From assembly GCA_026770025.1 (NCBI GenBank), contig JAMXDE010000010.1:1612001-1676000 (forward strand): a stretch of DNA of 64,000 nt, in the 5' to 3' direction. Source of the stretch: Craspedostauros australis (taxonomy: Eukaryota > Bacillariophyta > Bacillariophyceae > Mastogloiales > Achnanthaceae). Under the pieces are notes generated by a model. That model was not told the DNA's origin. It searched no databases and saw nothing but the letters and a program-made list of their open reading frames with translations. Of this stretch, positions 6,777-62,550 are shown one piece after another (within the stretch, counting starts at the first letter, position 1; the number at the start of each line of letters is the position of its first letter). A program made the translations under genes and the position numbers.

Positions 6777-8370
6777 TGTGTATATGTTGCTGCTGTTGTT
6801 GCTGTCTGTTGCTGTCTGTGTTAGGCTATGGTGATGGTGGCGTGCGGAATTTGTGACAAGGTGGGCTGGAGTGTGCTTACGAGTCTGAACCTCGACCTTC
6901 CTTGTTACTGTTACACTGTTGCTGCTACTGTTGCTGCTACTGTTGACGTTGTCGAAGGGATGGTCCCAAGATGAATGCTACCTATGATCTGCTGTGGTCT
7001 GCTATGGTCTCTTGTTTATGAAGGGCAAACAAGTCGGATGACAGAGGAGTGTTGGACACGTCGATCGTATTCGTGAGAGAGCGGCTTCCGAGGGTGACGA
7101 ATGCGAGGGCTGCCCGGATCGATCGATTGACAAAAGAACAAAAGGACCTTGTCGGTGGTGTCGTGGCGAGGATGCAGAGTCGTTTCTCTCAACTGTCAGA
7201 CGCTATTGGTTATGATTGTGGTTGTGGCAGTGATGTCGCTGGATGGTGCTCTTCGTGGTGTGCTTCTATGGTTGCTATTGTCACGTTGTCTTTGTTGTGA
7301 TTTCCGTGTCCTTCTTGTTCTCGCCACCCCTGTCTGTGCGTGTTACAAGCACCAGCATCCCAATACGGTGCTAAACAACGTGTGGTTTGCTCGGTTTTGC
7401 CGTTCATCACAACGCTGCCGGCTCCTGGGCGAAACGCCAACAGATAACACGCAGCGAAATCGTGGGAACTGTGGAAATCATGGAACAACGTTGAATCTGG
7501 ATTTTGTGGACGTGGTTTGTGGCCACCTCAGCATCCGAGGATGACGCGTGTCGGATTGGATATAATGGTATGATGTCGTAGCGACACTCGAAGTGTACGA
7601 CTGTACCTTGACCTGTCAGCGACAACAAGATCGGCCGGACTAAATCATTTAACAAAGCACTTTTTGCAATGACCAAACACGTTGCACCTGAGACATTGCC
7701 TCGAACACGTCACGTTTTGCATAATGCGCATCCGTCATCCCATGCGTCACTCCATCTGGAAGCGATCACGTCCCGAACTTTGCAATCTGCATTGCGAGTC
7801 GACGAAACGCCGAAAGCGTGGTCGCCCAAACGAGACATGTCACGATCCCGCATCTCGGAGGGTCCTTGTCAGACGAGCCTTAGAATTCTTCTTGCAGAAG
7901 CTGTGCAGCGTTGGCGTAGGGGATGCGTCAAAGTTAGAATCTACCATCACAAGAGGGGTGTTGTGGCGTGCGTCATCTTCGAGAGCACCAGTATGTAGGT
8001 GTCCTCTCTGCAACGACACCCACCACCACCACTATCGCGATGACGATCGCCACTATGACTATTAGACCCGAGCCCTTCAGCATCTCGCGGAGGTCCTCAC
8101 ATACGACCAGTCATGAGACGTCCAAGATCTGATGAGCATGGTAGGTAAAGTTAGCTATTCTATGTTGGAGAATATAGCATAGTAACATGGTATTGCGCAA
8201 TACTCGCCATGGAAGCACTCCAGAGCAAGACAGGGATCAGCATGTCGACAGCACGAAGATAGCAGAGTGGAGTAGCTGGTATAATACTTCGGAATAGAAT
8301 AGGAGAGCATAAGCAATCCCAAATAGATCGACCATAGTAACAACCTCTCTCTCTCTCGATGATACAGTAG
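6777..8370. other. Upstream flank of the ankyrin gene
   Basis: It should hold the promoter and 5' leader of the minus-strand ankyrin gene, including CTG/TTG-rich low-complexity DNA just upstream of the start. No further gene, RNA or repeat is supported. It ends at the inverted-repeat element that begins at 8371. Confidence 0.5.
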
Positions 8371-8410
8371 GACCCCATTCAGGATAGAAACGTACGTTTT
8401 TGCGGATTTT
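8371..8410. repeat. Left terminal inverted repeat of the 6.3 kb element
   Basis: It matches the reverse complement of 14649-14686 with few differences and is also shared with the left end at 61,488. Confidence 0.8.
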
Positions 8411-24269: not shown

Positions 24270-24969
24270 GGTGGTGTGTCTTCTGATGTTGGCGTCAATT
24301 GGGATTGTGATGGAATGGATCAACACAGCTGATCTCTTCTTGGTTGTGGGTGCTCGTCTCTTGTGTTTCTCGTTCGTTCGAGTGCCGCCACACATCAGTG
24401 TTGTTGCCGTGCGGTTGTTCCCAGATTTGTTTGGTTGTCGCAAGCTCCATCCGAAAGCCAATGTTCCACGGTGCGCGCGTGTGGCACGATTCGTCGATCC
24501 ATGATAAATGTATTCATGCGTGAATACTTCAAAGTGTCGCCAATAGGAGACGTGGACACTCATTGAGCAAACACGCCATACTCAAGCCGTTGAGGCCAAT
24601 AAGTATTACATGTGTGTATTTCACGGACAATCACAGAACGCCAGGCGATGCAACTCACACAAAACACAAATGCTGACGATCCAACTCCGCCATCCATGAC
24701 CATCATTATCATTCAATACTCTCTCATACTCTCTGAAGAGAGAGAGAGAGAGCATCCAGACGAGGAGAGGAATGTCATCAATAACACCACACTATCACAC
24801 TATCACACAATTAGAACGCCACCAATGCGGTAGCCCACGTGCTCTATTCATCGATCGTCCATACGAATGGTGACCCGTTTCGAAGACAAGTGGTGCAAAG
24901 AGGCATCGCCTTCATCGCAGTCGCTATTGCCGCTACTGTGACCATCCTCACAAACGGCATCACTCTGCT
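24270..24969. other. Intergenic between two minus-strand genes
   Basis: It holds the promoter side of the Asn/Tyr-rich gene and, from 24,584, the first copy of the 430 bp direct repeat. A short GAGAGA run lies near 24,740. No other gene is seen. Confidence 0.6.
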
Positions 24970-25014
24970 CTACCTGTTTGGGTACGTGGTGGTACGAAAG
25001 TGATCCCAACCATA
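24584..25014. repeat. 430 bp direct repeat, copy 1
   Basis: It matches 28121-28550 closely from AAGCCGTTGAG to GATCCCAACCAT, with small differences throughout. This copy covers the last 15 codons of the sulfotransferase-like gene and about 390 bases of its 3' flank. Confidence 0.9.
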
Positions 25015-28120: not shown

Positions 28121-28550
28121 AAGCCGTTGAGTCCAATAAGTATTACATGTGTGTATTTCACGGACAATCACAGAACGCCAGGCGATGCAACTCACACAAA
28201 ACACAAATGCTGACATTCCAACCCCGTTATCCGTGACCATCATTATCATTCAATACTCCTTCATACTCTCTGAAGAGAAAGAGAGAGAGCATCCGGACGA
28301 GGAGAGGAATGTCATCAATAACACCACACTATCACACTATCACACAATTAGAACGCGACCAGTACAGTAACCCACTTGCTCTATTCATCGATCTTCAATA
28401 CGAATGGTGACCCGTTTCGAAGACAAGTGGCGCAAAGAGGCATCGCCTTCGTAGCAGTCATCAGTGCCGCTACTGTGAACATCTTCACAAACGGCATCAC
28501 TCTGCTCTACCTTGTTGGGTACGTGTTGGTAAGAAAGTGATCCCAACCAT
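28121..28550. repeat. 430 bp direct repeat, copy 2
   Basis: Same orientation and nearly the same length as 24584-25014. It lies upstream of the sulfotransferase-like gene, so the pair brackets that gene. Confidence 0.9.
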
Positions 28551-28551
28551 A
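28507..28551 (-). pseudogene. Remnant of the 3' end of a second sulfotransferase-like gene
   Basis: On the minus strand this encodes YGWDHFLTNTYPTR followed by TAG. It matches the end of the intact gene (YGWDHFRTTTYPNR plus TAG) with the stop in the same place. Upstream of it the similarity ends abruptly. It is best read as the last codons of a tandem paralogue whose body has been lost. Confidence 0.65.
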
Positions 28552-39107: not shown

Positions 39108-42100
39108 ATGAACACGCTGGATACAGCACTCACAATGAGCAGTGGCAGCGGCACAATGAAGAACGAAGATCTGGCATCCGCATCCACCTTCGCGACGACG
39201 TCGCTGGAGGATTCAGTCGGCGGCGACGGCGACTTCTTCGACAAGTTCCTCAGAGACAATGCGGATGATATGAACTCGGAGTCCTTGGCCAATGTCAACA
39301 ACAGCAGCTTCCGGGCATCCAGTATGCTCGGAGGAGGCGCTGGCGGTGCTGGCAGCGGAGATGTGGATACGGATGCCTTCCTCACGCTCGGCAACCTGTC
39401 GATGAACGGCTCCATGAATGGATCCATCTCCATGATGATGGACTTCATGTCATCAGCCAACAATCTAGGCGAAGATGGCAACAACAGCAACAACAACAAC
39501 AACAACAGCATCTCCAAATTCCACTCCAACCACTCCAGCAGCACACCGCCTCTGCACAACAGCGCTGGCATCGCGGATGACGGTCTCCACACGGACAACA
39601 ACTCCTTGTCGTTGCAAGCCATGTCGCACCACTCCAACAACTCGTCATCAGCTGACAAGAGCGATAGCAGAATGCTGTCCGGCTCCTTCAACAGGCCAGC
39701 CCCAGGTGCGGGCATGGGACCGGCCCCCTCCAATTCCAACAGCCTTCAGTTCGGTCTGCCGTATCCTGGCGTCAACGCGTCCGCCAATGGCGCGATCAAC
39801 AGCGACGTCGCCATGGGGCAGCAACAGCGCAACGTGCCATCCAACCGAAACATGAATTCTGGCGCCACGAACAAAGCCGTTTCCGGCATGAAGCAGTCTG
39901 CCAGCTTCCATCCCGTCGACGATGCCACCACAGACATTGCATTTGGGAACGCGGCTGTCCCCAACAACGGCAACCACCAATTCAGCAACAACCGAATCAA
40001 GACGAAAGGCAACTCCACCTTTGCGTCCGTCTTCCCGACCAACGCGTCGCCATCGTTATCCACGCTTTTCCAAGGCAACAATGCCCTCCAAAAAAGCCGC
40101 AAGGCAGCCATGCAGGGCAACAACAACAACAGCAATACCAACAACAACAACAACAGCAGCAGCATATTCGATGCCAGCACATTGGACGAAATTCCAATGC
40201 TGGCCAGCCCATCCGAAACATCGCTGGGAATCGGCGGTCCCATGGGCATGCAACTCGGTTCCTCAGGACAGAACATGCAGGCATCGTCGTTGTCGTCAAC
40301 GGCAGGCGATGCGTCCATGTCGCCATTTGAACTCTACAAGGAGAAGAAACTGAAACAGCAGCAGCAGAACTCCACGCAGCCAACCAACAACGCCTCAAGG
40401 CCCAACAACCCAGGCACCCATTCCTCCGTCTTCCACAACATGAACGCCTCACAGCTCAAGTCCACCATGTCCGACGGCATGCTCGCCCGCGTCCTCAAGG
40501 CCAAGTACAACACATCCGGCGGCTCCGGCAACGGCGGGATGGGCAACGCTAACTTCTCCTTCAGCAACAACAAGAACGCCCGCGGCATGATGGCACCGGG
40601 ATTCAACCGCGTCTCGGGTCTGCCAAGGAACGCCATTTCATCCGCTGTCCTGTCGGGACCCTCCAGAGGACCCATCGCCGCCAGCATATCGAGGTCCAAG
40701 CTGCGCCATGCGGCCAACACGAGCTCCGGCTACATCAACGCCGGGAGCCGATCTCGTTTGGCCGCCATCGAAATATCGGGACCAGACGAATCTGGACAGA
40801 AGAATGCCACGTGGGGAAGCTCGACGAAGAGATCGAGCTCCGCCCTCTTCGCGAAGCTCCTCAGCAGCAAGGGAATGAAGAAGGACCCCTCCAAGCTGGT
40901 CTCCACCAAGTCCACCTCCAGCATCTCCAAGCTACTCGCATCCAGGAGGCACAGCAGCCGCAACCTCCTATCCTCCGGGGCGGCGGGCAGCATGGCGGCA
41001 TCGGGATCGTCCTCGACATCCATCAACAACTTCCTCAGGAATTCAAAGAAGCTCACCAAGACCCAATCCCTGCTGCGGCAGTCGTCTCAGAAATCACTCT
41101 CCAAAAGGCAATCCTTTCAGAATCTGACAGATTCGTCGGCTCCCGGCAAGGTCGACCTCTCCTTCCTTCTCCCGCCATCCCACACGAAGCCGCAGTTCCC
41201 TGATGCACAGCAGGGACAAAACCAGCAGCAACAACGTGAACAGCAGCAGCAGATGCAGCGAGGGTCTGGCCAAAGCGGAGGAATGCCGCCGCTCCTGTCT
41301 CCTGGTAGTATCCTGCACGCCGATAACGGAGTTGCCGCCAGGCGTAGCGGTGCGTTCCCCATGGCCGGTGTGTCGGGATCCGCCGTCGTCAACAAATCCA
41401 GCCAGGGGATGAGAAACAACGGTGGCGCAGCTTCGGGCGACGCCATCTCCACCGATTCCAGTCTCCTGCATCAATCCTGTCGGCTGTATCCAACGACTGC
41501 AGCTGTTGTGGAATCGGCCATCCGCATAGACCCCAACGCGGTGCGCCGTGCTGTGCCTATCACAACGACGGACGCCAACGGGCGACAAAGCGGCGGCGAT
41601 GTCTACGGATACCCAATCAACATCGCCATCAAGCACAACGCAACCGCGGAAGTCGTGCAGATGCTGGCGCAGGCCGATCCCAACGTCCTCGTGCAGAAGG
41701 ATGGACAAGAGGGATCCAGTTCGCTCGCGATTGCCATCCAAACAAAGTGCGATCCATCGATCCTCCAGGTGCTGTACCAAACGAATCCAAAATGCGTCGA
41801 AGTGCCGGATCGCCGCGCCAACACCCCGTTGCATACGGCCGTGAGTTCCGGCGCCGCAGTCTCCATCGTCAAGCAGCTCTACAAGCTCTATCCGAAGGCG
41901 TTGGAAATGAGGAACTTCAACTCCATGACGCCCTTGGACCTCGCTCAGCAATCCACGCGCTGCTCGGAAGATGTCATGAACTTCTTGCAATCCTCCGCCT
42001 TTTCGCCGTTGGAAAATCGCGCCTACCATTTCGACTCGGCCAAGGAACCCACCAAGGCCAAGCATTTTGGCATGGGAGGTGTGGGCAATGCCATGCCAAC

Positions 42101-42179
42101 GGGTCTCATGTCAATGGCGGGTGTGCCAGGGACGCTGGAGGAAGGGCTGGACGACATCATGGAAGCAAACATACAGTAA
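39108..42179 (+). CDS. Large Asn/Ser-rich protein with C-terminal ankyrin repeats
   Basis: A 1023-residue single-exon protein with an ATG start at 39108. The first 780 residues are low complexity with Asn, Ser, Gln and Met runs (GNNNNSNTNNNNNSSS, QNQQQQREQQQQMQ) and Arg/Lys/Ser-rich stretches in the middle. The C-terminal part, about residues 790-960, has ankyrin-like helices: SCRLYPTTAAVVESAIRIDP, INIAIKHNATAEVVQMLAQA, SLAIAIQTKCDPSILQVLY, NTPLHTAVSSGAAVSIVKQL and MTPLDLAQQ. Disordered N-terminus plus ankyrin C-terminus is a common diatom layout of unknown role, presumably scaffolding. The segment 40976-41390 recurs as decayed fragments in two spacers of the adjoining GPCR array, so this gene was part of the duplicated unit. 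It converges on GPCR copy 1. Confidence 0.85.
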   Translation: MNTLDTALTMSSGSGTMKNEDLASASTFATTSLEDSVGGDGDFFDKFLRDNADDMNSESLANVNNSSFRASSMLGGGAGGAGSGDVDTDAFLTLGNLSMNGSMNGSISMMMDFMSSANNLGEDGNNSNNNNNNSISKFHSNHSSSTPPLHNSAGIADDGLHTDNNSLSLQAMSHHSNNSSSADKSDSRMLSGSFNRPAPGAGMGPAPSNSNSLQFGLPYPGVNASANGAINSDVAMGQQQRNVPSNRNMNSGATNKAVSGMKQSASFHPVDDATTDIAFGNAAVPNNGNHQFSNNRIKTKGNSTFASVFPTNASPSLSTLFQGNNALQKSRKAAMQGNNNNSNTNNNNNSSSIFDASTLDEIPMLASPSETSLGIGGPMGMQLGSSGQNMQASSLSSTAGDASMSPFELYKEKKLKQQQQNSTQPTNNASRPNNPGTHSSVFHNMNASQLKSTMSDGMLARVLKAKYNTSGGSGNGGMGNANFSFSNNKNARGMMAPGFNRVSGLPRNAISSAVLSGPSRGPIAASISRSKLRHAANTSSGYINAGSRSRLAAIEISGPDESGQKNATWGSSTKRSSSALFAKLLSSKGMKKDPSKLVSTKSTSSISKLLASRRHSSRNLLSSGAAGSMAASGSSSTSINNFLRNSKKLTKTQSLLRQSSQKSLSKRQSFQNLTDSSAPGKVDLSFLLPPSHTKPQFPDAQQGQNQQQQREQQQQMQRGSGQSGGMPPLLSPGSILHADNGVAARRSGAFPMAGVSGSAVVNKSSQGMRNNGGAASGDAISTDSSLLHQSCRLYPTTAAVVESAIRIDPNAVRRAVPITTTDANGRQSGGDVYGYPINIAIKHNATAEVVQMLAQADPNVLVQKDGQEGSSSLAIAIQTKCDPSILQVLYQTNPKCVEVPDRRANTPLHTAVSSGAAVSIVKQLYKLYPKALEMRNFNSMTPLDLAQQSTRCSEDVMNFLQSSAFSPLENRAYHFDSAKEPTKAKHFGMGGVGNAMPTGLMSMAGVPGTLEEGLDDIMEANIQ

Positions 42180-43263: not shown

Positions 43264-44928
43264 CTATTGGATTCCGTCGAGTGACTCTGGGGGGCTTCCT
43301 GAATTGACTGTCTCTTCATGTTCCCGATCAGTGCTGTTGGATTCCTCCTTCGGTGCAAATATTGGTTCGCTTCCACCTGGTGACCTGCAAGAGCTGCTGC
43401 CGCATTCCTTGTGCTTCATCACAGATGATGGTGGCGCCTGTGCCGCGTTCCTTGTAACTCGGGGTAGTTCATCTGCGTCCCACCTGCCAGGTGCGGGTGT
43501 ACTGGAAATGCATTTGTGCAGCGTCTCCGAGGGGTGATGGAGTTTTGTGGAACTTGTCCGCGACTTTGGACGCTGGGCCTTCGGCACGTCCCGGCTGGAT
43601 ATGGAGCACCGCAGCACGTACATCAACGACTCGTCAGGCAGTGCTCTTCTCCATTGCTGGTACCTCGGCATGATGAAAATGATGAAGTTGAAGAATCCTT
43701 GCAGTGGGAAGAAGAGAAATGCCGCGAACTTCACAGCAAAGATCCCAAATTCACCCTTGTGCTCGTCGAAGTCAATCATTCTCATCGTCAATTCAGATAC
43801 GCCCGACCAAAGGACGGTGTTGAAATATGCGCTGCGGATGGCATTGTTGTTGTTGTGGTTGGTGGTGGTGGTGGCGGTGGATGGGATGCAGAGCATAGTG
43901 GTGATTGGCGTCGATGGTTGGTGTTTGATTTCATTCCATTCCATTCCATTCGATTCGATGCAGCGGAACAAGCAAATGTCGATGTGAGTGCGACACAAAG
44001 GCATCGATGTGAATTGGATTGAGCCGAGTTGATCTGAGTTTTGCCCAACGTTGTCATCTCGTGCCAAATATAGTTTCAGTCTTTGACTGTCGCATACACC
44101 GCACAACGCAACGACAGGATCTGACCCACAGCAACCCGGACGAGATTCTATCAGCGAGGGTACTTACAGCGCGTACAGGACGCATTGTCTCGACACCAGC
44201 CGCAACCGGTTCTTCCTGCTATCGTCGAGCGCTGCTTCTTCACCGCCGAAGGCATGGCGGTCGCTCTGAAGGGTGATGCTGCGGACCGTGCGGTACAGGA
44301 GGAAGGTGCAGACAACGCCCAGCAATCCGAAGAAGCAGGTCGTGTACAACTGCATCGTTGACAGATACGGATCTGCAGCCTCCCCACGCTCGCATTCAAC
44401 ATTGTCATCTGCTATGCAACCATCTGGGTAGGCCCTTATCACGCAAAGCCCATTGTGTTCCGAGGCTGTTATCCCTTGCATCGCGATGCCTGCGATTGGA
44501 ATTCCGAGACCGACCGTTGTGGCGATGATGTGGAACATGGTCTCCAACCTCTTCTTGACCTGTTCGTCCGTCCACTCGTATCGAATCTGTAGAAGGAAGT
44601 TGAGGGAGAGGAAGGAGCTGTGGATCGTGAGGAAGAGAAAGGAGCCGTAGAGGAAGAAACCCATGGCGGAGCACGATGCCGTGTTCCCAATTGCGTACGG
44701 AGCGGTGGTCCTCTCGGAGTCGAGGAGGTACGGGTGGAGCACGTTGGATATGCTCATCACCAGATCTCCCAGACAGATCATGAGCAGGATACGATGATAC
44801 ACCTTCTTGAGGTTCTTGCTGATTTGGATGATGATCAGGATCGAGCAGACGATCGATAGCAGACTGCTGATCGTCAGCGCCGCCGCAAGGGCGACGTACT
44901 GGCCCGTTGTATGTAGTTGCGTGGCCAT
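43264..44928 (-). CDS. GPCR array copy 1
   Basis: Exons 44928-44168 and 43831-43264 with a 336 bp intron (donor GTAAGT, acceptor CGCAG) give 442 residues. Seven hydrophobic segments can be read: about 13-35, 44-64, 84-114, 130-150, 193-213, 245-268 and 283-305. TM6 is split by the intron (VLYAL joined to AYFNTVLW). Receptor-like signs are CLGDL in TM2, QIRYEW after TM3, and PLQGFFNFIIFIMPRY in TM7, which resembles the family holding Dictyostelium cAMP receptors and secretin-like GPCRs. Cys86 at the top of TM3 and Cys162 in loop 2 could form the usual disulfide. The tail is about 135 residues, Ser/Thr/Glu-rich and probably cytosolic. The ligand is unknown. It ends ESLDGIQ, unlike the other copies. 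Confidence 0.88.
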
Positions 44929-45020
44929 CCAGGTCGTCTCGTCGATTGCTCTGTGGGTGCCGTTGTTGGTGACGATGACAATGAGCGCAAACGATGGTGC
45001 GCCAGAGAACAGGACTTGTT

Positions 45021-45060
45021 GGTCAGCAAATATGATCGACAGTGGTGGAACTTTCAGGTT
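45021..45060 (-). promoter_or_regulatory. Conserved upstream block, GPCR copy 1
   Basis: On the coding strand it reads AAAGTTCCACCACTGTCGAT followed by CATATTTGCTGACC, about 93 bases before the ATG. The same block lies upstream of all four copies. Whether it is promoter or 5' leader is not known. Confidence 0.5.
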
Positions 45061-45720
45061 GTGGAATGAACAGCGTCGGAGATGTCAGAGACTGCGTTGA
45101 GTTGAAATTGTGTGAGTGTGGTTGGGATCGGAGGAGGAGAAGGCTTTATGTGATGTTCGTGACTCTGGAGTTGTTGACGCACAATCTTCCCACAACGACA
45201 GCGCCGGACGTCGAAAGGTTCCATTCCTGGAGTGATTACGCCCCTCTTGGTTGTTTGTGTGGAGAATTAATCTGTTATCCAGCCCGGAAGTCACGTATCA
45301 GCGAACGCAAACAAGGGGGGAATTGTAGCGGCAGCAATGTCGATCGGGCTTAGGTACGAGCCATGAACAGAGGACGAACGGGAGCAATTACGTCGAAGCG
45401 CTTGCGCTCTGCTTTGCTTGTGTGGAGAAAAGCTTCTATCTTTGTTCATGTCGTGAACCCAAGAGAATATCTTGGACACGGAACACCCCTTCTCCGACCT
45501 TTCTGAATGTGTCACAGAGGCCCAATAACCATCCAAAGGACGATCCATGAGCGAGAAGCCATTGCGGGTGGCCGATGGGGACGCTGGCGGAGGCCAGAGA
45601 TCGCCCACATCCTCTTCATGAATCACAGCGCCACCAGGTCGACATCTTGCCTGTTCTAAAGAGGTATAGTTTTCGCCAAACATCGCAGGCATTGAGCTTG
45701 TTGTCCAGCCTGCCCTCATG

Positions 45721-46099
45721 CGCGGTTGCTGGTAGCATGGGTGCCATCGACAATTTCCTTGGCAATTCGAAGAAACCCAACAGGACCGAGCCTGTGCTGT
45801 GGTAGTCGTCCCGATAGTCCCTCCCCAAGTGACAACCCTCCCAGAATCTGACCGACTCGTCCACTCCCGAGCAAGGTCAGCCTCTCCTTGCTTCTCCCAC
45901 CATCCCACACGAAGCCGCAGTCCCCTGGTTCGAACCCTCTTGTCGCACAACAGCAGATGCAGATTCGGCAAGGGTTCGGTTGAGGTGAAAGAATGTCGCC
46001 TCTCCTGTCTCTGGACAGTATCCTGCACGTCGACAACGGAGGCGGTGAAGAGTGTAGCGGAGCATTCTGCATGACCTGTGTGTCAGGATGTGCCGTCGT
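45721..46099 (+). pseudogene. Decayed fragment of the large ankyrin gene
   Basis: It aligns with 40976-41390 of the ankyrin gene, both over the NFL-NSKK segment and over LLPPSHTKPQ, and on to the segment ending GCCGTCGT. It has stops and shifts and no start. Its right end joins directly to the 3' block of the GPCR unit, skipping the rest of the ankyrin gene. The same junction occurs near 50,775. Confidence 0.8.
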
Positions 46100-46720
46100 A
46101 TTGTTTCTTCTTCTCGCAATGCCACGTACGTTTGTGGTGTGGTGCGCATAGTTGGATGCAAACGCGATACTTCCGTAGCTGTAGCAATGGCCGAATGGAG
46201 CACATGTTCGACATCTGTATCCATGCTTTCACGAAATAGAATAGGTTGGCCGTCGTCTTTCATGGACAGAGCAGCGTTCATGGTTCTCACATTCGGGTCA
46301 CAAGTGTCCAGGCTTGACACGGTGCTGTGGTATCAGAGCGAGCCTCTCTGAGCCATTTGGTTCATCGCGGGATTCTGCGACAGCGACGAGGCTACATTCA
46401 ATTGATTGCATCCGTGAACACTCATGATGTCTTGTCGGCAAGCGCCACAGTCGCGAACTCCCAACAGGTTCAACTTCGACATCGACTTGCTCCCATTGAC
46501 ATCGGATCTTGCGTTTGTACTCAGATGGTTCGGCACAGGATGATCTCCCAATCAGAAGTGAGGACCATGACCGGTACGGAGAGCGTGATCAGATGCGACG
46601 CAAATGCAACCCTGATCGTTGTCACCGTCGAATAAGCTGGGCGCATCAGGAGCATGATTTGTGCCATGACCACGACGTACATACCGTTGTACTCAATGGA
46701 TGGAGACCATGCCAGGACCA

Positions 46721-48506
46721 TCATGTGCGAGTTTCATTGGTGCTCTGTTGGCTATCGTCAAGTGCCTCTGTTGGGCTGACTGAATTGGATGTCTCTTCAT
46801 GCTCCCGATCAGTGGTGTTGGATTCCTTCTCCTCCTCCTCTGCAGTGCTCGCACCGGGTTCAGTTTGACGTGATGATCTGTTGGGACTGCTGCATTCCTT
46901 GTGCTTTGCTGCAGATGGCGACAATGCTTGCGCAGCGTGCCTTGTAACTCTGAACGGTTCAGATGCATGTGATCTACCAGATGGAGGTCTGTCAGAGATG
47001 CGGAAATGTAAAGCTTCTGACGGGTGATGGAATTTTGTGGAACTTGTCCGCGACCCTGGACGTCGAACCCTGGGCACATCCCGACTGGATACAGAGCACC
47101 GCAGCACGTAAGACCATGGCTCATCAGGCAGCGCTCTTCTCCATTGCTGGTACCTCGGCATGGTGAAGATGATGAAGTTGAAGAATCCTTGCAGTGGGTA
47201 GAAGAGGAATGTTGCGAACTTCAGCGCGAAGATCCCAAATTCACCCTTGTGCTCGTCGAAGTCAATATTGTCCAACGTGAATTGGGCCAAGCCTGGCCAA
47301 AGGATGGTATTAAAGTATGCGCTGAGGATGGCATTGTCAGTGTCGAGAGTGAATGGTGGATGGAAGGAAGAGCACAATAGTGGTGGCCGTTGATTTGCAG
47401 TGTTTGGTTACATCGTTCCATTCCATTTCATTGGGTGGAGGTGGCAAGTTTGAATGTGAATGTGGCAAAAGGCATCGATGTGAAGTGAATTGAATTGAGT
47501 TCAGCTGGGCTGGGTCGAATCGTGAATAGCGCGAAGTTCATGCTCGGCGGATTGATGACTTGTTCGCCAGCATACTTCATCTACTCCTGGACGTATCAAA
47601 GAAGGTTTTAGTCCATGGCTATCGCATGCGCCGCACAGCGCGACGCACGACGCAATATTGCGGCGTACGTGGCACCATTTCCAGCACAACCACCGGATCT
47701 GATCCGCAGCAACCTGCATGAAATTGAATCGCCGATAGAACTTACAGCGCGTACAGGACGCATTGTCTCGACACCAGCCGCAACCGGTTCTTCGTGCTAT
47801 CGTCCAGCGCTTCCTCTTCACCGCCGAAGGCATGGCGGTCGCTCCGAAGGGTGACGCTGCGGACCGTGCGATACAAGAGGAAGGTGCACACAACGCCCAA
47901 TGACCCAAAGAAGTAGGTCGTGTACAACTGCGCGGCCAACACATAGGTCTCCGTGATCTCTCCACGCTCGCATTCAACATTGTCATCTGATATGCAACCG
48001 TTCGGGTAGGCGATCATCAAGCAAAGATCGGCCTGTTCTGAGGTTGTTATCCCCTGCGTCGCGATGCCTGCGATTGGAATTCCGAGACCGACCGTTGCGG
48101 CGATGATGTGGAACATGGTCTCGGCCCGCGTCTTCACCTGCTGCTCCGTCCAATTGTATCGAATCTGCAGGAGAAAGTTGAGGGAGAGGAAGGAGCTGTG
48201 GATCGAGAGGAAGAGGAAGGAACCGTAGAGGAAGAAGCCTACGACGGAGCACGACGCCGTATTCCCGACCGCGTATGGAGCGGTAGTTTTCTTGGAGTCC
48301 AGAAGGTACGGGTGGAATAGGTTGGATGTGCTCATCGCCAGATCTCCCAGACAGATCATGAGCAGGATGCGATGATACACCTTCTTGAGGTCCTTCTTGA
48401 CCTGGATGATGATCAGGATCGAGCAGACGATTGACAGCAGACTGCTGATCGTCAGCGCCGCCGCAAGGGCGACATACTGACCCGTTGTATGTAGTTGCGT
48501 GGCCAT
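46721..48506 (-). CDS. GPCR array copy 2
   Basis: Exons 48506-47746 and 47321-46721 with a 424 bp intron (donor GTAAGT, acceptor CTCAG) give 453 residues. Exon 1 is the same length as in copy 1 and very similar to it (MATQLHTTGQYVALAAALTI identical). TM3 ends with QIRYNW. The intron again splits TM6. TM7 reads FYPLQGFFNFIIFTMPRYQQ. The mid-tail resembles copy 1 (RTSSTKFHHPSEALH against RTSSTKLHHPSETLH), while the end of the tail (PTEALDDSQQSTNETRT) is nearly the same as in copy 3. Topology and role are as for copy 1. Confidence 0.88.
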
Positions 48507-48600
48507 CCAGGTCGTCTCGTCGATTGCTCTGTGAGTGTCGTTGTTGGCGACAATGACAATGAGCGCAAACGATGGTGCGCCAGAGAACAGGACTTGTTGA

Positions 48601-48640
48601 TCAGCAAAGATGATCGACAGTGGTGGAACTTCCAGGTTGC
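48601..48640 (-). promoter_or_regulatory. Conserved upstream block, GPCR copy 2
   Basis: The coding strand reads GAAGTTCCACCACTGTCGAT followed by CATCTTTGCTGA, about 95 bases before the ATG, matching the block before copy 1. Confidence 0.5.
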
Positions 48641-48766
48641 GGAAAGAGCGGTGTGGGAGATGCCGAAGGCCGTGTTGGGATGCGATTGTGCGGTCATGGT
48701 TGGGATCGGAGGAGAAGACCGGTTGTGTTTGTGGTGGTGTTGTCCCTGTCGTTGATGTTCGTGACT

Positions 48767-49867
48767 AGAGGCCTATCGCATTTCACATTGGGAGTCCCAC
48801 GGTACAAAATAACCTGATAATGATATTTTTAGAGGGGCAACATGCGAACTTCCCCCTCGGAAAGTGAAACTCGATTGCGTTTTAGGAGCCAAAAACACAA
48901 TTGAGTTTCACATTGCAGTCCCGGCAATCCAACCTTCCACGTGTTGGAACGAAACGAATGGCCAATCATTTCTCTTCATTTGCAGAAATGTTGAGTCGTC
49001 CTTGTCGTAACAATGATATTTTTTTGAGATGCTAGTGATGATGAAACTAGCATTCCGAATGAGAGGTGCATGGAGCGATAGAGAGCGATTAAGATGTCGA
49101 ATATGCCTGTAAGCTTCACATATGATATCTACGCGCAAATATAAAAGGACCCCTTCATGATCCAGCTGAGGAATCTTTGCTCATATCCTAGTTCACCCGA
49201 TACAACATCCACGGCGTGTTCCTGATGCTCTGAGGACTAGTGTAGTCAGATACGACCAGGGACTTCGACCAACGCGCATTTTGCATCTTTTGGAGATCCT
49301 GACTGCCATATCGGAAGTCGTTGTTGGTCTCCAACCAACCCAACGCGCAATCGCAATAGTTCTGTGTAGACTGCGTGGAGACCTTCTATTGGACAACAAA
49401 CTGCTGATCCATCTCCATGATACAGTGATCAAGAGGTCTCTGTCATCGATATTGGCAACAGAGCCTTGAACAAGCTATGAATCAGCAGGGACAAAGTGCT
49501 TGCGCATATGTTACCGGACCTCTGTTAGTAGCAAAGTTGAGACAGAAGAGATGGCAGCGAAACTCTCAGAACACGAAGCTCCTAAGAGAAGAAAGAGGGA
49601 TGTGCGTTGCGTGCAACTCAGAGCACACCCATTAATGATCCTATCAACCTTTGGTCTCAACAAGTGATGCGATAACATGCAAGGAGCATTCATATCAGAG
49701 CAGTCTAAACTAGAGCTCTATTCTACAGAAGAGAAGCCGATTCAGTCATGTTGGTCGTCTTTCTGAGTAGATCACGAACTAGTCACGAGTACCAATGTGA
49801 AATCCGAACGTGAGTGCCACATGTGACATGAGCACAGGGGTGTGAATGTGAAATGCGATAGGCCTCT
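48767..49867. mobile_element. 1.1 kb non-autonomous element with inverted repeats
   Basis: The ends are perfect inverted repeats of 23 bases, beginning AGAGGCCTATCGCATTTCAC. ACT flanks both ends (48764-48766 and 49868-49870). The preceding spacer has the unoccupied form, GTGACTCTGG, with ACT once, so this is a clean insertion with a 3 bp target duplication. The interior has no long open frame; a stretch near 49,281-49,469 (MHLLEILTAISEVVVGLQPT) is the most protein-like and is not recognised. The superfamily cannot be named: 3 bp duplications occur in PIF/Harbinger and CACTA groups, but neither the site nor the termini are typical of them. Confidence 0.85.
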
Positions 49868-50397
49868 ACTCTCTCTGTGGTTGTTGCCACATAGGCATTC
49901 ACGAATTCCCGCCACAGAACGCAAAAACAAGAACGAGCAACCGGCACCGAGAAACACGACCACCACGCAATCTCCCCACATCGGCAACACTGAACGCCGA
50001 AAGGCTCCATTCCCAGCATGGCCACGCCCCTCGTGGTTGTTTGTGTGGAGAATTAATCTATTATCCAGCCCGAGAGCCACGTGTGTGCGAATGCGGACAA
50101 AGGGAAATGTCGTAACAGCAACGTCTATCGGGCTGAGGTACGAGCCATGAACAGAGGACTAATGGGAACGGCTGCGTGCATGTCGAAGCGCTGTTGCTCT
50201 GCTATGCTTGTGTGGAGAAAAGCTCTATCTTTGGTCATGTCATGAACCCGATGGAGACTCTGCTCGAGGCTAGAGGTCGTGCACATCCTCTTCATGAATC
50301 ACAGCGTCGCCAGGTCAACATCTTGCCTGTTCCAGAGAGGTATAGTTTTCGCCAAACATCGCAGGCATTGAGCTTGTTGTCCAGCCTGCCCTCATGC

Positions 50398-50775
50398 GCG
50401 GTTGCTGACAGCATGGATGCCATCGACAACTTCCTTTTCAATTCGAAGAAACCCAACAGGACCGAGCCTGTGCTGTGGTAGTCGTCTCAACAGTCTCTCT
50501 CCAAGTGACAACCCTTCCAGAATCTGGCCGACTCGTCCACTCCCGAGCAAGGTCGTCCTCTCCTTGCTTCTCCCACCGTCCCACACGAAGCCGCAGTTCC
50601 CTGGTTCGAATCATCTTGTCGCGCAGCAGCAGATGCAGATTCGGCAAGGGTCCAGTCGAGGTGAAAGAATGTCGCCTCTCCTGTCTCCGGACAGTGTCCT
50701 GCACGTCGACAACGGAGGTGCTGAAGGGTGTAGCGGAGCATTCTGCATGACTTGTGTGTCAGGATGCGCCATCGT
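50398..50775 (+). pseudogene. Second decayed fragment of the large ankyrin gene
   Basis: It is homologous to 45721-46099 and to 40976-41390 of the ankyrin gene. It keeps the readable segment LLLPPSHTKPQFPG and SPLLSPDSVLHVDNGG, against LLPPSHTKPQFPD and PPLLSPGSILHADNG in the intact gene. It has the same junction to the GPCR 3' block as the first fragment, so the deletion came before the duplication that made copies 2 and 3. Confidence 0.8.
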
Positions 50776-51231
50776 ATTGTTTCTTCTTCTCACAATGCCA
50801 CATGCTTTTGTGGTATCAGAGCGAGCCTCTCTGAGCCATTTGGTTCATCGCGGGATTCTGCGACAGCGACGAGGCTACATTCAATTGATTGCGTTCGTGA
50901 ACACTCATGATGTCTTGTCGGCAAGCGCTGCAGTCGCGAACTCCCAACAGGTTCAACTTCGACGTCGACTTGCTCCCATTGACATCGGATCTTGCGTTTG
51001 TACTCAGATGGTTCGGCACAAAATGATCTCCCAATCAGAAGTGAGGATCATGACCGGTACGGAGAGCGTGATCAGATGCGACGCAAATGCAGCCCTGATC
51101 TTTGTCGCCGTCAAAGTCAGAGCCGGCGAGTGGAGGAGGCGAATGAGTTGGGCGCATCAGGAGCATGATTTGTGTCATGACCACGACGTACATACCGTTG
51201 AACTCAATGGATGGAGACCATGCCAGGACCA

Positions 51232-52982
51232 TCATGTGCGAGTTTCATTGGTGCTCTGTTGGCTATCGTCAAGTGCCTCTGTCGGGCTGACTGAATCGGA
51301 TGTCTCTTCATGCTCTCGATCAGTGGTGTTGGATTCCTTCTCCTCCTCCTCTGCAGTGCTCGCACCGGGTTCAGTTTCACGTGATGGTCTGTTGGGACTG
51401 CTGCATTCTTTGTGCTTTGCTGCAGATGGCGACAATGCTTGCGCAGCGTGCCTTGTAACTCTGAACGGTTCAGATGCATGTGATCTACCAGATACAGGTC
51501 TGCTGTAGGTAAACTTCTGCGAAACTTCAGAAGTGTACTGGGATCTGATGGAGCCTATCCGCGACCCTACACCCCGAGCCTTGGGCACATCCCGGCTGGA
51601 TATGGAGCACCGCAGCACGTACATCCATGGTTCATCAGGCAGCGCTCTTCTCCATTGCTGGTACCTCGGCATGATGAAGATGATGAAGTTGAAGAATCCT
51701 TGCAGTGGGTAGAAGAGGAATGCCACGAACTTCAGCGCAAAGATCCCAAATTCACCTTTGTGCTCGTCGAAGTCAATGAATGTCAAAATGAGTTGAGTCA
51801 CGCCCGGCCAAAGGATGGTGTTGAAATATGCGCTGCAGATGGCGTTGGCGATACCAGCATCGGTGGTACAGGAATTGTCATTCCAATCCACGTCAAACCC
51901 ATCCCATTCCATGGAGAAGACAAATGTGGATGTGGCAAGAGACATCAGTGTGAGTTGAATTGAGTTGGCTTGGGGTAAGCTGGATGGTGAACAGGGTAAA
52001 GTTCGTGCTCTTTGCGTTGCTGTCCTATTGTTCCAACAAACGCCATCGTCTTCGACTGTGCTGCAGAATGTAACAACCTTCACAATGGCACGCATACCAC
52101 GGGCGCAGCGTAATGCAATAGAAAGCAAGACAGTGAAGTGCAGAGCAATGCGATGCGTACGTGACAGCACCTCCAGCGCAACCACCGGATCCGATCCGAT
52201 TCAATCAGCCATGGAACTTACAGAGCGTACATAACGCATTGTCTCGACACCAGCCGCAGCCGTTTCTTCTTGCTATCGTCCAGCGCAGATTCGTCGCCGC
52301 CGAATGTATGACGTTCGCTCTGAAGAGTGATGCTGCGGACTGTGCGGTAAAGGATGAAGGTGCAGGTAAAGCCCAGCAATCCGAAGAAGTAGGTCGTGTA
52401 GGATTGTATGGGCGCCACATACGTCTCCGTGATCTCTCCACGCTCGCATTCAATGTCGTCATCTATGATGCAACCGTGCGGGTAGGCGATCATCAAGCAA
52501 AGCCCGATCTGCTCCGAGGTTGTCATCCCCTGCGTCGCAATTGCTGCGATTGGAATGCCGAGACCGACCGTTGTGGCGAATATATGGAATGTCGTCTCGG
52601 CCCATTTCCTGACCTGGTCCTCCGTCCACTTGAAGCGGATTTGCAGGAGGAAACTGATAGAGAGGAAGGAGCTGTGGATCGAGAGGAAGATGAATGGACC
52701 GTAGAGGAAGAAACCCATAACGGAGCACGACGCCGTATTCCCAATTGCGTAGGGAGCGGTGGTCCTCTCGGAGTCGAGGAGGTACGGGTGGATTATGTTG
52801 GACATGCTCATCGCCAGATCTCCCAGACAGATCATGAGCAGGATGCGATGGTACACCTTCTTGAGGTCCTTCTTGACCTGGATGATGATCAGGATCGAGC
52901 AGATGATCGACATCAGACTGCTGGTCGCCAGCGCCGCCGCAAGGGCGACATACTGGCCAGTTGTATGTAGTTTCGTGACCAT
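51232..52982 (-). CDS. GPCR array copy 3, mosaic
   Basis: Exons 52982-52222 and 51832-51232 with a 389 bp intron (donor GTAAGT, acceptor TGCAG) give 453 residues. The start reads MVTKLHTTGQYVALAAALAT. Exon 1 and the first half of the tail resemble copy 4 (PIQSYTTYFFGLLG; DVPKARGVGSRIGSIRSQYT). The second half of the tail and the DNA beyond the stop resemble copy 2 (SGRSHASEPFRVTRHAAQ; STNETRT). The switch is near 51,490. Membrane topology and the TM6-splitting intron are as in the other copies. Confidence 0.88.
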
Positions 52983-54945
52983 CCAGGTCGTCTCGTCGAT
53001 TGCTCTGTGGGTGTGGGTGTTGACAGCAGCGGCTCCTGCTGTTTCTATGGCTTCTGTTGCTGATGATCACGGCCAAGATTGGCGCGAAGGATGGCGCGAG
53101 CACCTACGAGCCACGCCAGAGAAACAGGACTCTGTGATGCTGTGAGTTCCAGGCGTGTGCAGGCAAGTCAACAGAGCAGCTCGTACGGTATAGTCCTGGA
53201 AATTGCTCCGTCATGCAGCCCAGAGTGCGAGGATGTGATGGGCAAAGATGATCGACAGCGATGGAGCTTCCAGTTTGTTGAACAAACAGCAGCACAAACG
53301 CCAAGGGGGGCGGACCGTGAAGTGTGTGTGTGTGTGGATGCAAGCAGGAGAAGCACGTTGGTGGCAGCCACAACCTGTGTGCTGTCCATTGTGATGCTGT
53401 CGTGCGAACAAGAGAAAGCAACAAGCACACCAACACACACAGGAGGCACCAAGAAACAGGCAACAACCCAAAGCGCGTTGGGCGTGACAGGAATTCCCGT
53501 CCCCTTCGGTGAAAAAAAGTTTTTCGCCTCCATCTCGACAGATCACGTTTCGCAACGGAGTCAATTGTTTAAGCGACAACAACACGAAGCATGATGTAAT
53601 CGGGATCAACTTGCGAGCAACATTTTCCCGCGCACAAACATTTTCCCATACTAAGGCACTACATGTTTGCGAAGAACAAGAATGCAACTTACACTACATA
53701 TGAATTTCTACTTAGTGCATCATTCTCTTCAACAGCTTTGATATGGTTCCTTGCGACCATGACCCATCGATTGTCACCAGCTTTGCTTGGAAGATGTCAA
53801 GATCTTCAGTTTTGTTCTTCGAGTGTTGTGTTGAGAAGAGAATAAGTGTCATCAGAGAAAAACACGTCTTTGTGGCCTTTTCCAGCTTGCTGAAGATCCC
53901 CAAAAGAACCAACTTCGAGCAAGATGGCATAGTGACTCACCATGCACGTCTCAGATAGCTAAGTCATTTATGATTATTTAGTACATTCCACATAGCTCCC
54001 ACATGATGTGTGGGAAGAAACCGTAGTCGTCTTTCTAGACCGAGCAAAGATTAGTTCATAGCACAAGTGCGAGGCAACGGCATGAGTCCCAGTCTAGAGT
54101 CCCAGCATAAGACGTAGAGCAGTCCTTCTTCTTGCATTTGGAGTTGGCTGGAGCATGGCGGTCCGAGGCCTTCGCTCCACAGCATCCCAAGTGTCAGCGC
54201 TCTCTCCGCATGCAGGACACGTCGTCAGCGCAAAGCATGATTTCCACGGCCGTACGAGTATTGGCATAATGGGATCGCCAAAGGGTCGACACGCACAGGT
54301 GGCAGAGCGTGCTCCTACTGCAGAGCTGCCATATCGTTTCTCCTTTTCGCAGTACCACATGGTCTATCTGTGTGTTGCGGACCAATGGATGCAAACGCGG
54401 TACTTGGTTGGCCGTAGCCGTGTCGAGTGCACGCCGATGGATGCAAATGTGGTGCTTGCTTGGCCGTCACGTGTCTTGAGCCCATCCTTGATCGTCGATC
54501 TCGCATACGGCTCAGCAATGCTCGAAAGGCTGCTGCTGTGATACCAAAGGAGCCTCCCTGCGGTAGCACCGAGCGCGGAGTTGATTGATTGCACTCGTGA
54601 ATACTCTGAATATCGTATCGATATGTGCTGGAGTTGACAGCCTCCTGCAGATTCAGCCCCGAGCGGAGCTTGGCTTCGTCAACATCGGATCACGTTTGTG
54701 CTCAGGCATGAGGGAGCTGGACAGTTTGCCGATCGGGAATGAGGACCACGGCTGGTACGGCGAGCGCGATCTGATGTCACGTGAATGCAATTGCTGTTAC
54801 GATCGACATCGGATCCGGAGCTGGCGACTGGAGGAGGAAGCGATGATGGCGGCGGCGGCAGAGAAGCTGGGCAAGCGACGAGCACGATCACTGGTCATGA
54901 TCAGCATGTAGATGCCATTGCATGGATGGAGACCATCCCGGACCA
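52983..54945. other. Spacer between GPCR copies 3 and 4
   Basis: It holds the upstream block of copy 3, then about 0.7 kb (53,300-54,050) with no match elsewhere in the array, then a 3' block from about 54,150 that resembles the ancestral form at 42,480-43,263. No ankyrin fragment is seen here. A minus-strand frame at 53,712-53,930 is open but unrecognised. Confidence 0.6.
53241..53277 (-). promoter_or_regulatory. Conserved upstream block, GPCR copy 3
   Basis: The coding strand reads GGAAGCTCCATCGCTGTCGA followed by TCATCTTTGCC, about 259 bases before the ATG. It is farther away than in copies 1 and 2 because of extra intervening sequence. Confidence 0.5.
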
Positions 54946-56619
54946 TCATGTGCGCACATCATCGGTGCTCTGCTGGCTGTCGTCAAGTGATTCTGTGGGG
55001 CTGCCTGAATTGGATGCTTCCTCGTGGTCCCGACTTGCGCAGTTGGATTTCTCCTCCTCCTTCACCACCTTGCTCATATCTGGTTCGTTTTCATCTGATG
55101 ACCTCTCAGGGCTGTTGCATTCCTTTTGCTCTGTTGCGGGCGGTGACGATGCCTGTGGCGCATGCCTTGTAGCGCTGAACGATTCAGATACCTGACATCT
55201 ACCTGATCCCGGTCTGCCGAAGGTGCACCTATGCGACGTTTCTGAGGTGTACTGGGATCTTGCGGAACCTGTCCGCGACCCTACACCGCGAGCCTTGGGC
55301 ACATCCTGGCTGGATATAGAGCACCGCAGAACGTACATCCATGGCTCGTCCGGCAGCGCCCTTCTCCATTGCTGATACCTTGGTATGATGAAGATGATGA
55401 AGTTGAAGAATCCTTGCAGCGGGTAGAAGAGGAATGCCACGAACTTCAGAGCAAAGATCCCGAATTCGCCTTCGTGCTCTTCGAGGTCAATCATGGTCAA
55501 TGCTAATTGAGTCACGCCCGGCCAAAGGATGGTGTTGAAGTATGCGCTGCGGATGAAATTGGTGACGACAGCGATGTTTGGTGTTCATTCCATTCCATTC
55601 GATTCAATTCGATGCAGTTGGAAGAGGCAAGTGTTGATGTGGATGTGACGAAGGTATCGGTGTGAGTTGAGTTGAGTCCAGCCGAGTTGTGGACAGCGCG
55701 AATTTCTGTGGGAGTAGATTCCTGCCTAATTGAAGGCTGCAGTCTGGACTGTTGCGTGCACCACGCCAGGCAGCACAATGCAATGTACGACGGCGTCTCC
55801 AGCACAAACAACAGGGCCTGACTCGTGGCAACCCAAGCAAGATTCAATCAGCGATGGAACTTACAGAGCGTACATGACGCATTGTCTCGACACCAGCCGC
55901 AGCCGTTTCTGCTGCGCGTTGTCCGGCGTCGCTGCCTCGCCACCGAATGCATGACGTCCGCTCTGAAGGGTAATGCTGCGGACCGTGCGGTAAAGGATAA
56001 AGGTGCAGATGAAGCCCAGCAGTCCGAAGAAGTAGGTCGTGTAGGATTGCATGGGTGCCACATACGTCTCCGTAATCTCTCCGCGCTCGCATTCTACGTC
56101 GTCATCTGTTGTGCAACCGAGCGGGTAGGCGATCATCACGCAAAGTCCAATCTGATCCGATGCCGATATCCCCTGCGTCGCGATTGCAGCGAGTGGAATT
56201 CCGAAACCAACCGTCGTGGCGATGATATGGAATATGATCTCCGCCCGTTTCTTGATCTTTTCCTCCGTCCACTTGAAACGGATCTGCAGAAGGAAGTTGA
56301 TGGAGAGGAGGGAGCTGTGGATCGAGAGGAAGATGAACGAACCGTAGAGGAAGAAGCCCATGGCAGAGCACGAGGCCGCGTTCCCAACAGCGTACGGAGC
56401 GGGACTTCTCTCGGAGTCCAGAAGGTACGGGTGGAATAGATTGGATATACTCATCACCAGATCTCCCAGACAGATCATGAGCAGGATGCGATGGTACACC
56501 TTCTTGAGGTCCTTCTTGATTTGCATGATGATCAGGATCGAGCAGACGATCGACAGCAGACTGCTGGTCGTCAGCGCCACCGCAAGGGCGACATACTGGC
56601 CAGTTGTGTGTTGCCCCAT
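54946..56619 (-). CDS. GPCR array copy 4
   Basis: Exons 56619-55865 and 55546-54946 with a 318 bp intron (donor GTAAGT, acceptor CGCAG) give 451 residues. The ATG at 56619 gives MGQHTTGQYVALAV, two codons shorter than the other copies. The frame remains open upstream but has no ATG. TM2 keeps ICLGDLVMSI, TM3 is followed by QIRFKW, and TM7 is FYPLQGFFNFIIFIIPRYQQ. The tail is the most diverged in the array (SRDHEEASNSGSPTESLDDS, ending STDDVRT). This copy and copy 3 form one pair, copies 1 and 2 the other, judged on exon 1. Confidence 0.88.
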
Positions 56620-56764: not shown

Positions 56765-56934
56765 TGTATTTGGAGCCGAGCGATGGGGACTCTTCGATGC
56801 TGTGACTGCCAGGTGTGTATTGGTGGGCAAGACAGCAGAGTATTGGTTAGGTGCAGCGCTCTGGCCTGCTCTGCGATGACTGTGGGCTGTGGAGTCGATG
56901 TGGGGATTTGACACTCGTCGATGAGCTCGTTGAT

Positions 56935-56972
56935 GAGCAATGATGGTCAGCAGCGACGGAACTTTCAAATTT
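56935..56972 (-). promoter_or_regulatory. Conserved upstream block, GPCR copy 4
   Basis: The coding strand reads AAAGTTCCGTCGCTGCTGAC followed by CATCATTGCTCAT, about 316 bases before the ATG. It matches the blocks of the other copies with a few changes. Confidence 0.45.
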
Positions 56973-57907
56973 TGTTGGACGAATGGCATCAAGGATGGTG
57001 AGGGAGGCAGGGGCACGGCCGATGGGTACCTCGTTGACCACGAAGGCTGCGCTATGTGTTGAGCGGGGAGAAGCTTGTTGTTGTTGTCGTTACTGTTGCT
57101 GCTGCTGCCGTCGGTGGGTGCCATCTGTTTGCGTTGCCGGATAATACGACGGTACCAAGAACATGTATGGCAAAGAGGGAGGAGGCGCAAACTTCTCGCT
57201 CCCACACCGGCGGGGCGCATGACCATTGCGACCAGAGCGAGTGAGACGCGTGTTTCTCCCGCGGTGCCAATGCGAGAGATGGAAAAGCCCAACCGGAATT
57301 AGTGAACGGCGTGACAATTGCTACCGCGGTGAACAAACAACGAACAACGACCAACAACACACCCAGGACCAAAAATATCCGTCGTTGATTGAGGACCCAA
57401 GAAGAATGCGAATTGTGCATGTGTTACTTATGTGGTCGTTTTTTTCATGTCGTTGTGCGGATTCGCCACAGCCATGACCAATCCCTTGGGACTCTTGTGC
57501 ACTCCCGAGTTGTCATGACATTTATCCAATGCAGTTACTAGTGCCCCATCGAAAGACAAGAAAGCGCGTGACTAAACTCTCCCTTTGGACTTGCTCGACT
57601 CTTTGTTGATGCGCAACAAATAATCGCTTCGCGACGTCACAGCTGACCACGTGTTCACTTGTTGAGATTGGGCGTTGTCGTTACAAATTGAATATATACT
57701 ACCGCAACTCCCGAAGGTTTCCGACGAACACATGTTATCGTCCTAGCTTTCCATCAAACATAGAAAACTACGCAAGTGGAGCGAGTAGGACGTCATCTGT
57801 GTTGACATTTTCGGGAGATGACATCAGCAGCAGTTTGGGTTCGGCAACCTCAGCGTCAACATGAGCATGGGAGGCAGTTGCCGTTTCTGCATTGGAACGG
57901 GTTGCAC

Positions 57908-61326: not shown

Positions 61327-62550
61327 GAATGGTATCCTTTGGGGCTTTGGGTATTGTGCGTGTGTTTGTCTCACTCGACACTCGTACGAGCACTGCTTTG
61401 AAGCCTGGGTTCTCGTCCTTGGTGTTCAGAGTATTGCTGCTGTTTGCTGTGGTTGATAATACGATGCATGTAGCTTGCGACCCATACGACCCCATTCAGG
61501 ATACAAAGGTATTATCGTGCCGATTTTTAGTTTGAGGACTTCGTTCATCCTATAATGCCGTAGAGAGTATATGTGTGAAGTGATAAGCTCCTGAGCCTTG
61601 TAGTTAAAAAGTTTATATTTTTCGCATTAGTCTATGACTAAACACGTTGGGAATACGGACGTAGACGTGCAATTGGGTTTGGAAACGCCAGTCGTGCTTC
61701 AATTTGATGTCCAGTCGTGCCCATCATCGACACACTCACATTTAGCGTTGGTGAGGCGGCTGGTTTCGAAGAAGTGTTGAGGATTGCGTGGCAGCGGTAG
61801 GCATGCCAAGGATGCTGATTCATCTGGGCCATGGATCAGTTGTCAAAATTCAGAGTTGTGGGCTAGTGGGTAATCCAGATCTTGACCCCCAGCTTGACTT
61901 TCACACTGTCTTGTTCTCGGTTCTGCTGCCGTTTATGTTCCAGGACGTCGATCTTTGTCCATGTCCCAATCAGCACACACTGCCTTCCCTCCATATGCCT
62001 ACTCTTTATTGCGGCCTTGTCCTCATTTCAGATCTATTCTCTGTTTGTTCCTTTGGACCTCCTCTCTGCTCGTCGTCGCCAACAGCCATCTCTGGCTGCT
62101 GGCTGTTGTTCATCTGCTCTCCTCTTGGCTTGTTATTTTGGTGTCAATGAATCTGGAAGCACACGAATCACAACACGAAAACAACATGGAAAACAACACC
62201 ACTGCCACCAGGCTCTTTCCGCACCATGCCAACAGCTCAGCAGATGACCTCAGCATCCCCTGTCCAATGGAAGCAAAGCAGGTTGCGCAGGACTTTGTAT
62301 TAACACACTAAGCTTAGTGTGAAATAATGCTAAATTTTGCATACTAAAGAATGTCCCATGGCTCTTCCACAGTTGATGACGTACGTAGGACCAGCACAAA
62401 AATTCTCATGTAGAACCTGTAGAATCAGTACTAGAACAAAATCTTTGACAATGGTGTGCACAGGCGCACAAAACAGCTCTGGCAAAGTCAACCAGAGCGC
62501 TCGATCGATGCCGACCATGGCGCAAGGATGTCCAGGACAAGGAGGCCGAG

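Follow-up and report, generated by a model that had tools for sequence, protein, structure and literature searches.

We have analyzed a window of 64,000 nucleotides from the diatom Craspedostauros australis, a stretch without N, in which four GPCR-like genes (c1 to c4) lie head to tail, all on the minus strand, and span exactly positions 43264-56619. The initial annotation had described four intact receptor genes of two exons each, and the open frames and splice sites bear this out, as do the gene models for the exon lengths given there, the GTAAGT donor and an intron that cuts TM6. The models, with splicing predicted from the genomic sequence, are the following:

44168..44928, minus strand, c1 exon 1, 761 b, from TM1 to the start of TM6
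43832..44167, minus strand, c1 intron, 336 b, GTAAGT...CAG, phase 2
43264..43831, minus strand, c1 exon 2, 568 b, with the rest of TM6, TM7 and the tail
47746..48506, minus strand, c2 exon 1, 761 b
47322..47745, minus strand, c2 intron, 424 b
46721..47321, minus strand, c2 exon 2, 601 b
52222..52982, minus strand, c3 exon 1, 761 b
51833..52221, minus strand, c3 intron, 389 b
51232..51832, minus strand, c3 exon 2, 601 b
55865..56619, minus strand, c4 exon 1, 755 b
55547..55864, minus strand, c4 intron, 318 b
54946..55546, minus strand, c4 exon 2, 601 b

In all four copies the donor falls at the same codon, the acceptor is CAG and the phase is 2; once spliced, each frame runs uninterrupted between its ATG and its stop. 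The predicted proteins have 442 (c1), 453 (c2), 453 (c3) and 451 (c4) amino acids, the C-terminal end of c1 (at 43264) being 8 residues short of the end common to c2-c4. The first exons are 82-87% identical in DNA among the copies, a value too low for them to be alleles or a duplicated piece of assembly.

The topology of the proteins was assessed on an alignment of 16 of the 21 spliced family models (L017b, L018, L021, L022 and L023, close to rows that were kept, were omitted). The averaged hydropathy of these 16 cores showed eight maxima, two of them within TM3, i.e., seven segments; in the single sequence of c3 no peak above 1.4 appeared at TM5 and TM6. With the TM ends set by hand, the intracellular stretches were net positive (+1.7, +1.9, +2.6 and +2.8) and the extracellular ones net negative (-0.4, -1.6, -5.6 and -2.3; means of the 16 sequences). 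Hydropathy and loop charges together indicate seven TM segments with the N terminus outside and the C terminus inside. Thirty columns were invariant, and C86 (TM3), C162, C171 and C179 (ECL2) and N302 and F306 (TM7) were found in 16/16 rows, so that the cysteines for the predicted disulfide between TM3 and ECL2 are present. About 11 residues precede TM1. The AlphaFold model of exon 1 alone, predicted from the four window copies, was poor (pLDDT 38) and does not confirm a GPCR fold.

None of the four array proteins reached the cut-off of any Pfam family, GPCR families included. The nearest match was Frizzled (21.5 of 22.3 bits, c4), and Git3 (at best 13.9 of 24.2 bits) and GPR_Gpa2_C (17.9 of 21 bits) also remained below. 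At E<=1 the four proteins gave no match to Dicty_CAR (PF05462) nor to 7tm_3, and thus are not assigned to class C. By E-values only, at E<=0.1, the 16 cores matched GPR_Gpa2_C (6), Frizzled (5), Git3 (2) and 7tm_1 (1), and non-GPCR models were also among the matches, BCLP (E=0.0014 in 2 of the 16) scoring as well as GPR_Gpa2_C. The best match in PDB was Frizzled-3 (E=0.014 over ~90 residues). The tails, with a Ser/Thr content of 25-29%, had weak matches far under cut-off (DUF6473, E=0.22; POM121, E=0.52). Among eight distant relatives (L029 and L036, which contain stops, were excluded) all matches were weak and likewise below cut-off: 7tm_1 in four, Str in one, Dicty_CAR in one, DUFs and COX14, with two having no Pfam match. 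We consider the array proteins GPCR-like by these sequence criteria and assign them to no class.

The array belongs to a larger family. In the 74.8-Mb assembly (90 contigs) we found 44 places matching exon 1 of c1 and 30 matching exon 2 of c3 (one of the latter, C28:609015, taken into the analysis as exon 2 only). Neighbouring family copies exist also on other contigs, such as C39, C22 and C3. The same phase-2 junction, on the same codon of TM6, was detected in 25 genes: the four of the array and 21 outside, comprising 17 modelled genes and four more (L025 twice, L026 and L027), GTGAGT replacing the GTAAGT donor in some of them. The filter that selected the 17 required phase 2 and a conserved motif past the junction, and most of the same junctions are visible without it in the raw contexts, in which the offsets are wrong for L010a and L014 and L024 is not placed. 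Besides the 25, three of the 44 places appear to be read through and 16 were left unassigned, among them L024, covered only for residues 7-167, and a stop-bearing piece at C22:266985. The TM6 intron is therefore not special to the array but a feature shared within the family, and the 25 genes assigned in this genome show that, as far as predicted structures tell, it is older than the array and was inherited from an ancestor of the family. In L030 and L041 the match seems to run through the intron site, and less surely in L032, where a surplus of 46 residues leaves room for an in-frame intron; the TM6 intron may thus be the mark of a single clade within the family.

A longer N terminus was considered and dropped, since the start Met of most of the 17 modelled relatives has nearly the same position; that of L013 and L014 lies further upstream. 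In a related receptor clade (L016-L022, on C22, C62, C66 and C60) the motif DHTG-x-V-K/R stands at or near the end of the tail in 6 of the 9 modelled genes and its variants IDHAGIVK and INYAGDIR in two more tails, L023 being without it. When viral contigs were scanned with the profile of 16 rows, 63 pattern matches and no relative came up.

In a tree of 31 core rows the four copies form a clade with 100/100 support, within which c4 branches first, then c3 (98/92) and then c1+c2 (100/98). Being both adjacent and monophyletic, they are a case of tandem expansion, and the sequences between them preserve part of its record:

39108..42179, plus strand, intact ankyrin-repeat gene, 1023 aa, Ank_2
45744..46099, plus strand, ankyrin-gene fragment in a spacer, 71% to 41020-41389
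50420..50775, plus strand, ankyrin-gene fragment in a spacer, 73% to 41020-41389
45572..46138, spacer block, 91% identity with 50248-50814
46326..47336, spacer and c2 exon 2, 89% identity with 50809-51847

Some 370 bases of the ankyrin gene are found again downstream of c2 and of c3, in spacers whose blocks are ~90% alike; a piece of the neighbour gene was thus copied with the unit. The 3' spacer of c4 is similar to that of c1 (71%) and has no ankyrin fragment. The spacers thus show that the array grew by segmental duplication and that the c2/c3 unit carried part of the ankyrin gene. Two further repeat pairs are found elsewhere in the window, 24584-25014 with 28121-28551 (92.6% identity) and 8368-8809 with 61485-61929 (79% identity).

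A second layer of history became apparent from the informative sites, counted here for the groupings 12/34, 13/24 and 14/23 of the copies, in this order. The 5' flank (23, 1 and 5) and exon 1 (30, 6 and 12) favour the first grouping and the 3' flank overwhelmingly the last (1, 4 and 61); the tail counts were 11, 1 and 21, and those of the intron (8, 1 and 11) and the exon-2 core (2, 3 and 2) do not decide the mosaic. The change is sharp: at codons 341-362, 11 of 13 sites are for 12/34, and from codon 371 onward all 15 are for 14/23. In the direction of the gene, exon 2 of c2 is c1-like to ~46999 and c3-like from ~46972 (coordinates calculated manually, with codon columns 362 and 371 as the basis). 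Accordingly, the c2/c3 pair has a dS of 0.10 [0.03-0.19] for the distal tail but 0.38 [0.26-0.50] for exon 1. Both the distal tail and the 3' flank of c2 and c3 are almost identical, and together with this breakpoint they show the transfer of the two by gene conversion or unequal crossing-over. The mosaic of the tail is the most interesting new point of the array.

The rates of nucleotide change were compared for cores and tails, a check that had been proposed with the initial annotation. Cores had omega values of 0.25-0.35 in 6/6 pairs, and the upper ends of the bootstrap intervals stayed below 1 in exon 1 as well as in the exon-2 core. Omega of the distal tails was 0.27-0.43 in the five pairs other than c2/c3, again bounded below 1, and 0.77 [0.36-2.46] in c2/c3 (dN 0.08). 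Cores, and distal tails in 5/6 pairs, are therefore under clear purifying selection. For the proximal tail the values went from 0.21 to 1.52, the only one above 1 being that of c2/c4, with an interval of 0.58-9.28. Outside c2/c3, dN was 0.22-0.46 in the tails against 0.09-0.13 in the cores. Synonymous divergence was 0.33-0.48 in the cores and 0.64-1.41 in the distal tails of the five pairs other than c2/c3; the values of c1 against the others (1.3-1.4) have wide intervals and misalignment may inflate them. The check thus pointed to tails less constrained than cores, with no good sign of positive selection. The earlier statement that the tails differ holds for five of the six pairs and fails for c2/c3, with its near-identical distal tails.

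The regions that differ most are the 5' flanks, c1/c2 excepted. Further upstream than ~40 bases from the ATG, an unbroken alignment is obtained only for c1 with c2 (86% over 212 b); c3 and c4 are divergent. An element of 40-80 bases, located ~75-290 bases from the ATG, can nevertheless be aligned in 4/4 copies:

45009..45089, minus strand, upstream element of c1
48582..48667, minus strand, upstream element of c2
53223..53305, minus strand, upstream element of c3
56910..56988, minus strand, upstream element of c4

Matches of the element within the four copies are by construction, and blastn left those of c1 and c4 unpaired. Among the 35 further loci searched, nothing matched it convincingly (best E=0.072). 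We regard it as a candidate promoter element. The 5' flanks diverge far more than the cores, which favours divergence in expression; the copies likely differ mainly in the timing of expression and perhaps in the tuning to the ligand.

We have looked in the genome for the proteins with which such receptors could act. A single G-alpha gene was over the Pfam cut-off (C1:471181-472693, two stretches taken as one) and three other stretches were under it, in a search that works exon by exon and that a gene split into small exons could escape. This sits uneasily with the G-alpha of all four classes that, together with G-beta, are reported for four diatoms by Port 2013 (PMC3727952), where G-gamma is given only for T. 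pseudonana. Four Arrestin_C stretches were over cut-off, and there were 26 stretches of class C 7tm_3 (25 over cut-off), located away from the array. Nucleotide cyclases (PF00211) had 155 candidate stretches, of which 150 were scored, some genes giving more than one. RGS, G-gamma and Dicty_CAR gave no match in the genome, nor did any control genome in the same searches, so the absence of these proteins is not shown. The same genome contains 88 stretches matching the silicon transporter (PF03842) at E<=0.001, with no control genome over cut-off, and these matches support its being a diatom genome. At least 25 are stop-free, near-full-length frames (~500 of 513 positions) on many contigs, e.g., L044-L046; a 2026 survey mentions 'more than 30 copies' as the upper figure for diatoms and Parmales (PMC13403384).

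Taken together, we find it probable that the array is a GPCR-like tandem clade specific to this locus, built by segmental duplication, later reshuffled, with an inherited TM6 intron, and coding for chemoreceptors that work via the single G-alpha. The proteins would be located at the plasma membrane, with an extracellular N terminus, and a small external chemical cue would be sensed in the helix bundle and the second extracellular loop. The receptors would then activate the single G-alpha and influence second messengers, perhaps via the many nucleotide cyclases. The Ser/Thr-rich tails would act in desensitisation and trafficking, instead of serving separate partners. In our opinion the proteins are most likely cell-surface chemoreceptors that use a single G protein and have diversified chiefly in their expression.

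Other readings have to be weighed against this one. The initial annotation had offered dosage expansion, i.e., four near-equivalent copies that provide more of one protein, and the intactness of all four genes and the recombination that keeps some stretches alike would suit it. But the synonymous divergence of the cores, and 5' flanks of which only the c1/c2 pair can be aligned without a break, suggest old, diverging copies, and the flanks favour diversification of expression instead; we hold dosage as a possible but rather unlikely explanation. It is similarly doubtful that the 44 places represent a large class of diatom receptors distinct from those GPCR classes that have names, with one G-alpha, a very large number of cyclases and distal tails that conversion exchanges as cassettes within arrays, a reading under which tail and core would evolve as separable modules. 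The annotation had also suggested one ligand-binding core with tails wired to different intracellular partners. Tails do diverge more than cores outside c2/c3; however, c2 and c3 have the distal tail in common, and its transfer argues against each tail being a separate adaptation. In the other five pairs the dS of the distal tail is also high and omega gives no positive selection, only one G-alpha gene is over cut-off and no tail match comes near a Pfam cut-off, all of which oppose this wiring and make it improbable.

A role as light receptors, similar to opsins, has been suggested in print for a tandem GPCR family of diatoms; for the array it is very unlikely. The retinal lysine of animal opsins, which we take to be located six residues before the TM7 Asn, was not found in the 26 motif-bearing rows (of 31), where this residue is Pro or Ser in 26/26; in this the array proteins are unlike opsins, and they were not classed as type II opsins. 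In favor of light there would be, if the two families are the same, the 'GPCR rhodopsin-like' family of Seminavis robusta, tandem-expanded and with a P. tricornutum orthologue that goes up in blue-green light (PMC7335047). That the genes are pseudogenes or an artefact of the assembly, as the end of c1 8 codons before the others could suggest, is hardly credible given four open frames with common splice sites, core omega below 1 and the identity of the first exons.

We return then to chemoreceptors acting through one G protein. The array is a real, small cluster, shuffled by recombination, of a larger family, and a fairly ordinary though instructive case of gene duplication; alone it overturns nothing. 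The sensing of outside cues by diatoms is poorly known, and a compact array with intact receptors, a common intron, one candidate G-alpha and a mosaic history that can be traced is a usable test bed for such cues.

No receptor paper could be tied to the array in a literature search of incomplete coverage, but several known systems can be compared with it. The similarity to Frizzled/Smoothened (class F) covers ~80-90 residues in the region of TM3-ECL2, with E=0.00012 at best, and for the array proteins it stays under the cut-off. The Frizzled family has an N-terminal Fz domain (PMC12716839), and the ~11 residues before TM1 leave no room for this cysteine-rich domain, so the proteins are not placed in class F. 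To the fungal Git3/Gpr1 glucose receptors there is a weak resemblance at TM6-TM7, through GPR_Gpa2_C, again sub-cut-off, and to the cAMP receptors of Dictyostelium through the distant relative L033, which matches Dicty_CAR at E=0.067. The class C-like GPCRs of diatoms (Port 2013, PMC3727952; GPCR1A and GPCR4 of Phaeodactylum tricornutum, PMC7452957) are likewise diatom GPCR candidates, from which the array differs in its short stretch before TM1 and in having no 7tm_3 match at E<=1. Cells of P. tricornutum with a GPCR1A or GPCR4 construct are reported to turn mostly oval (PMC7452957), and a GPCR3 homologue in Pseudo-nitzschia multistriata is reported to go up in response to sexual cues (PMC5485032). 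Like the array, the Seminavis robusta family consists of tandem GPCR-type genes of a diatom, a likeness by description rather than by sequence (PMC7335047).
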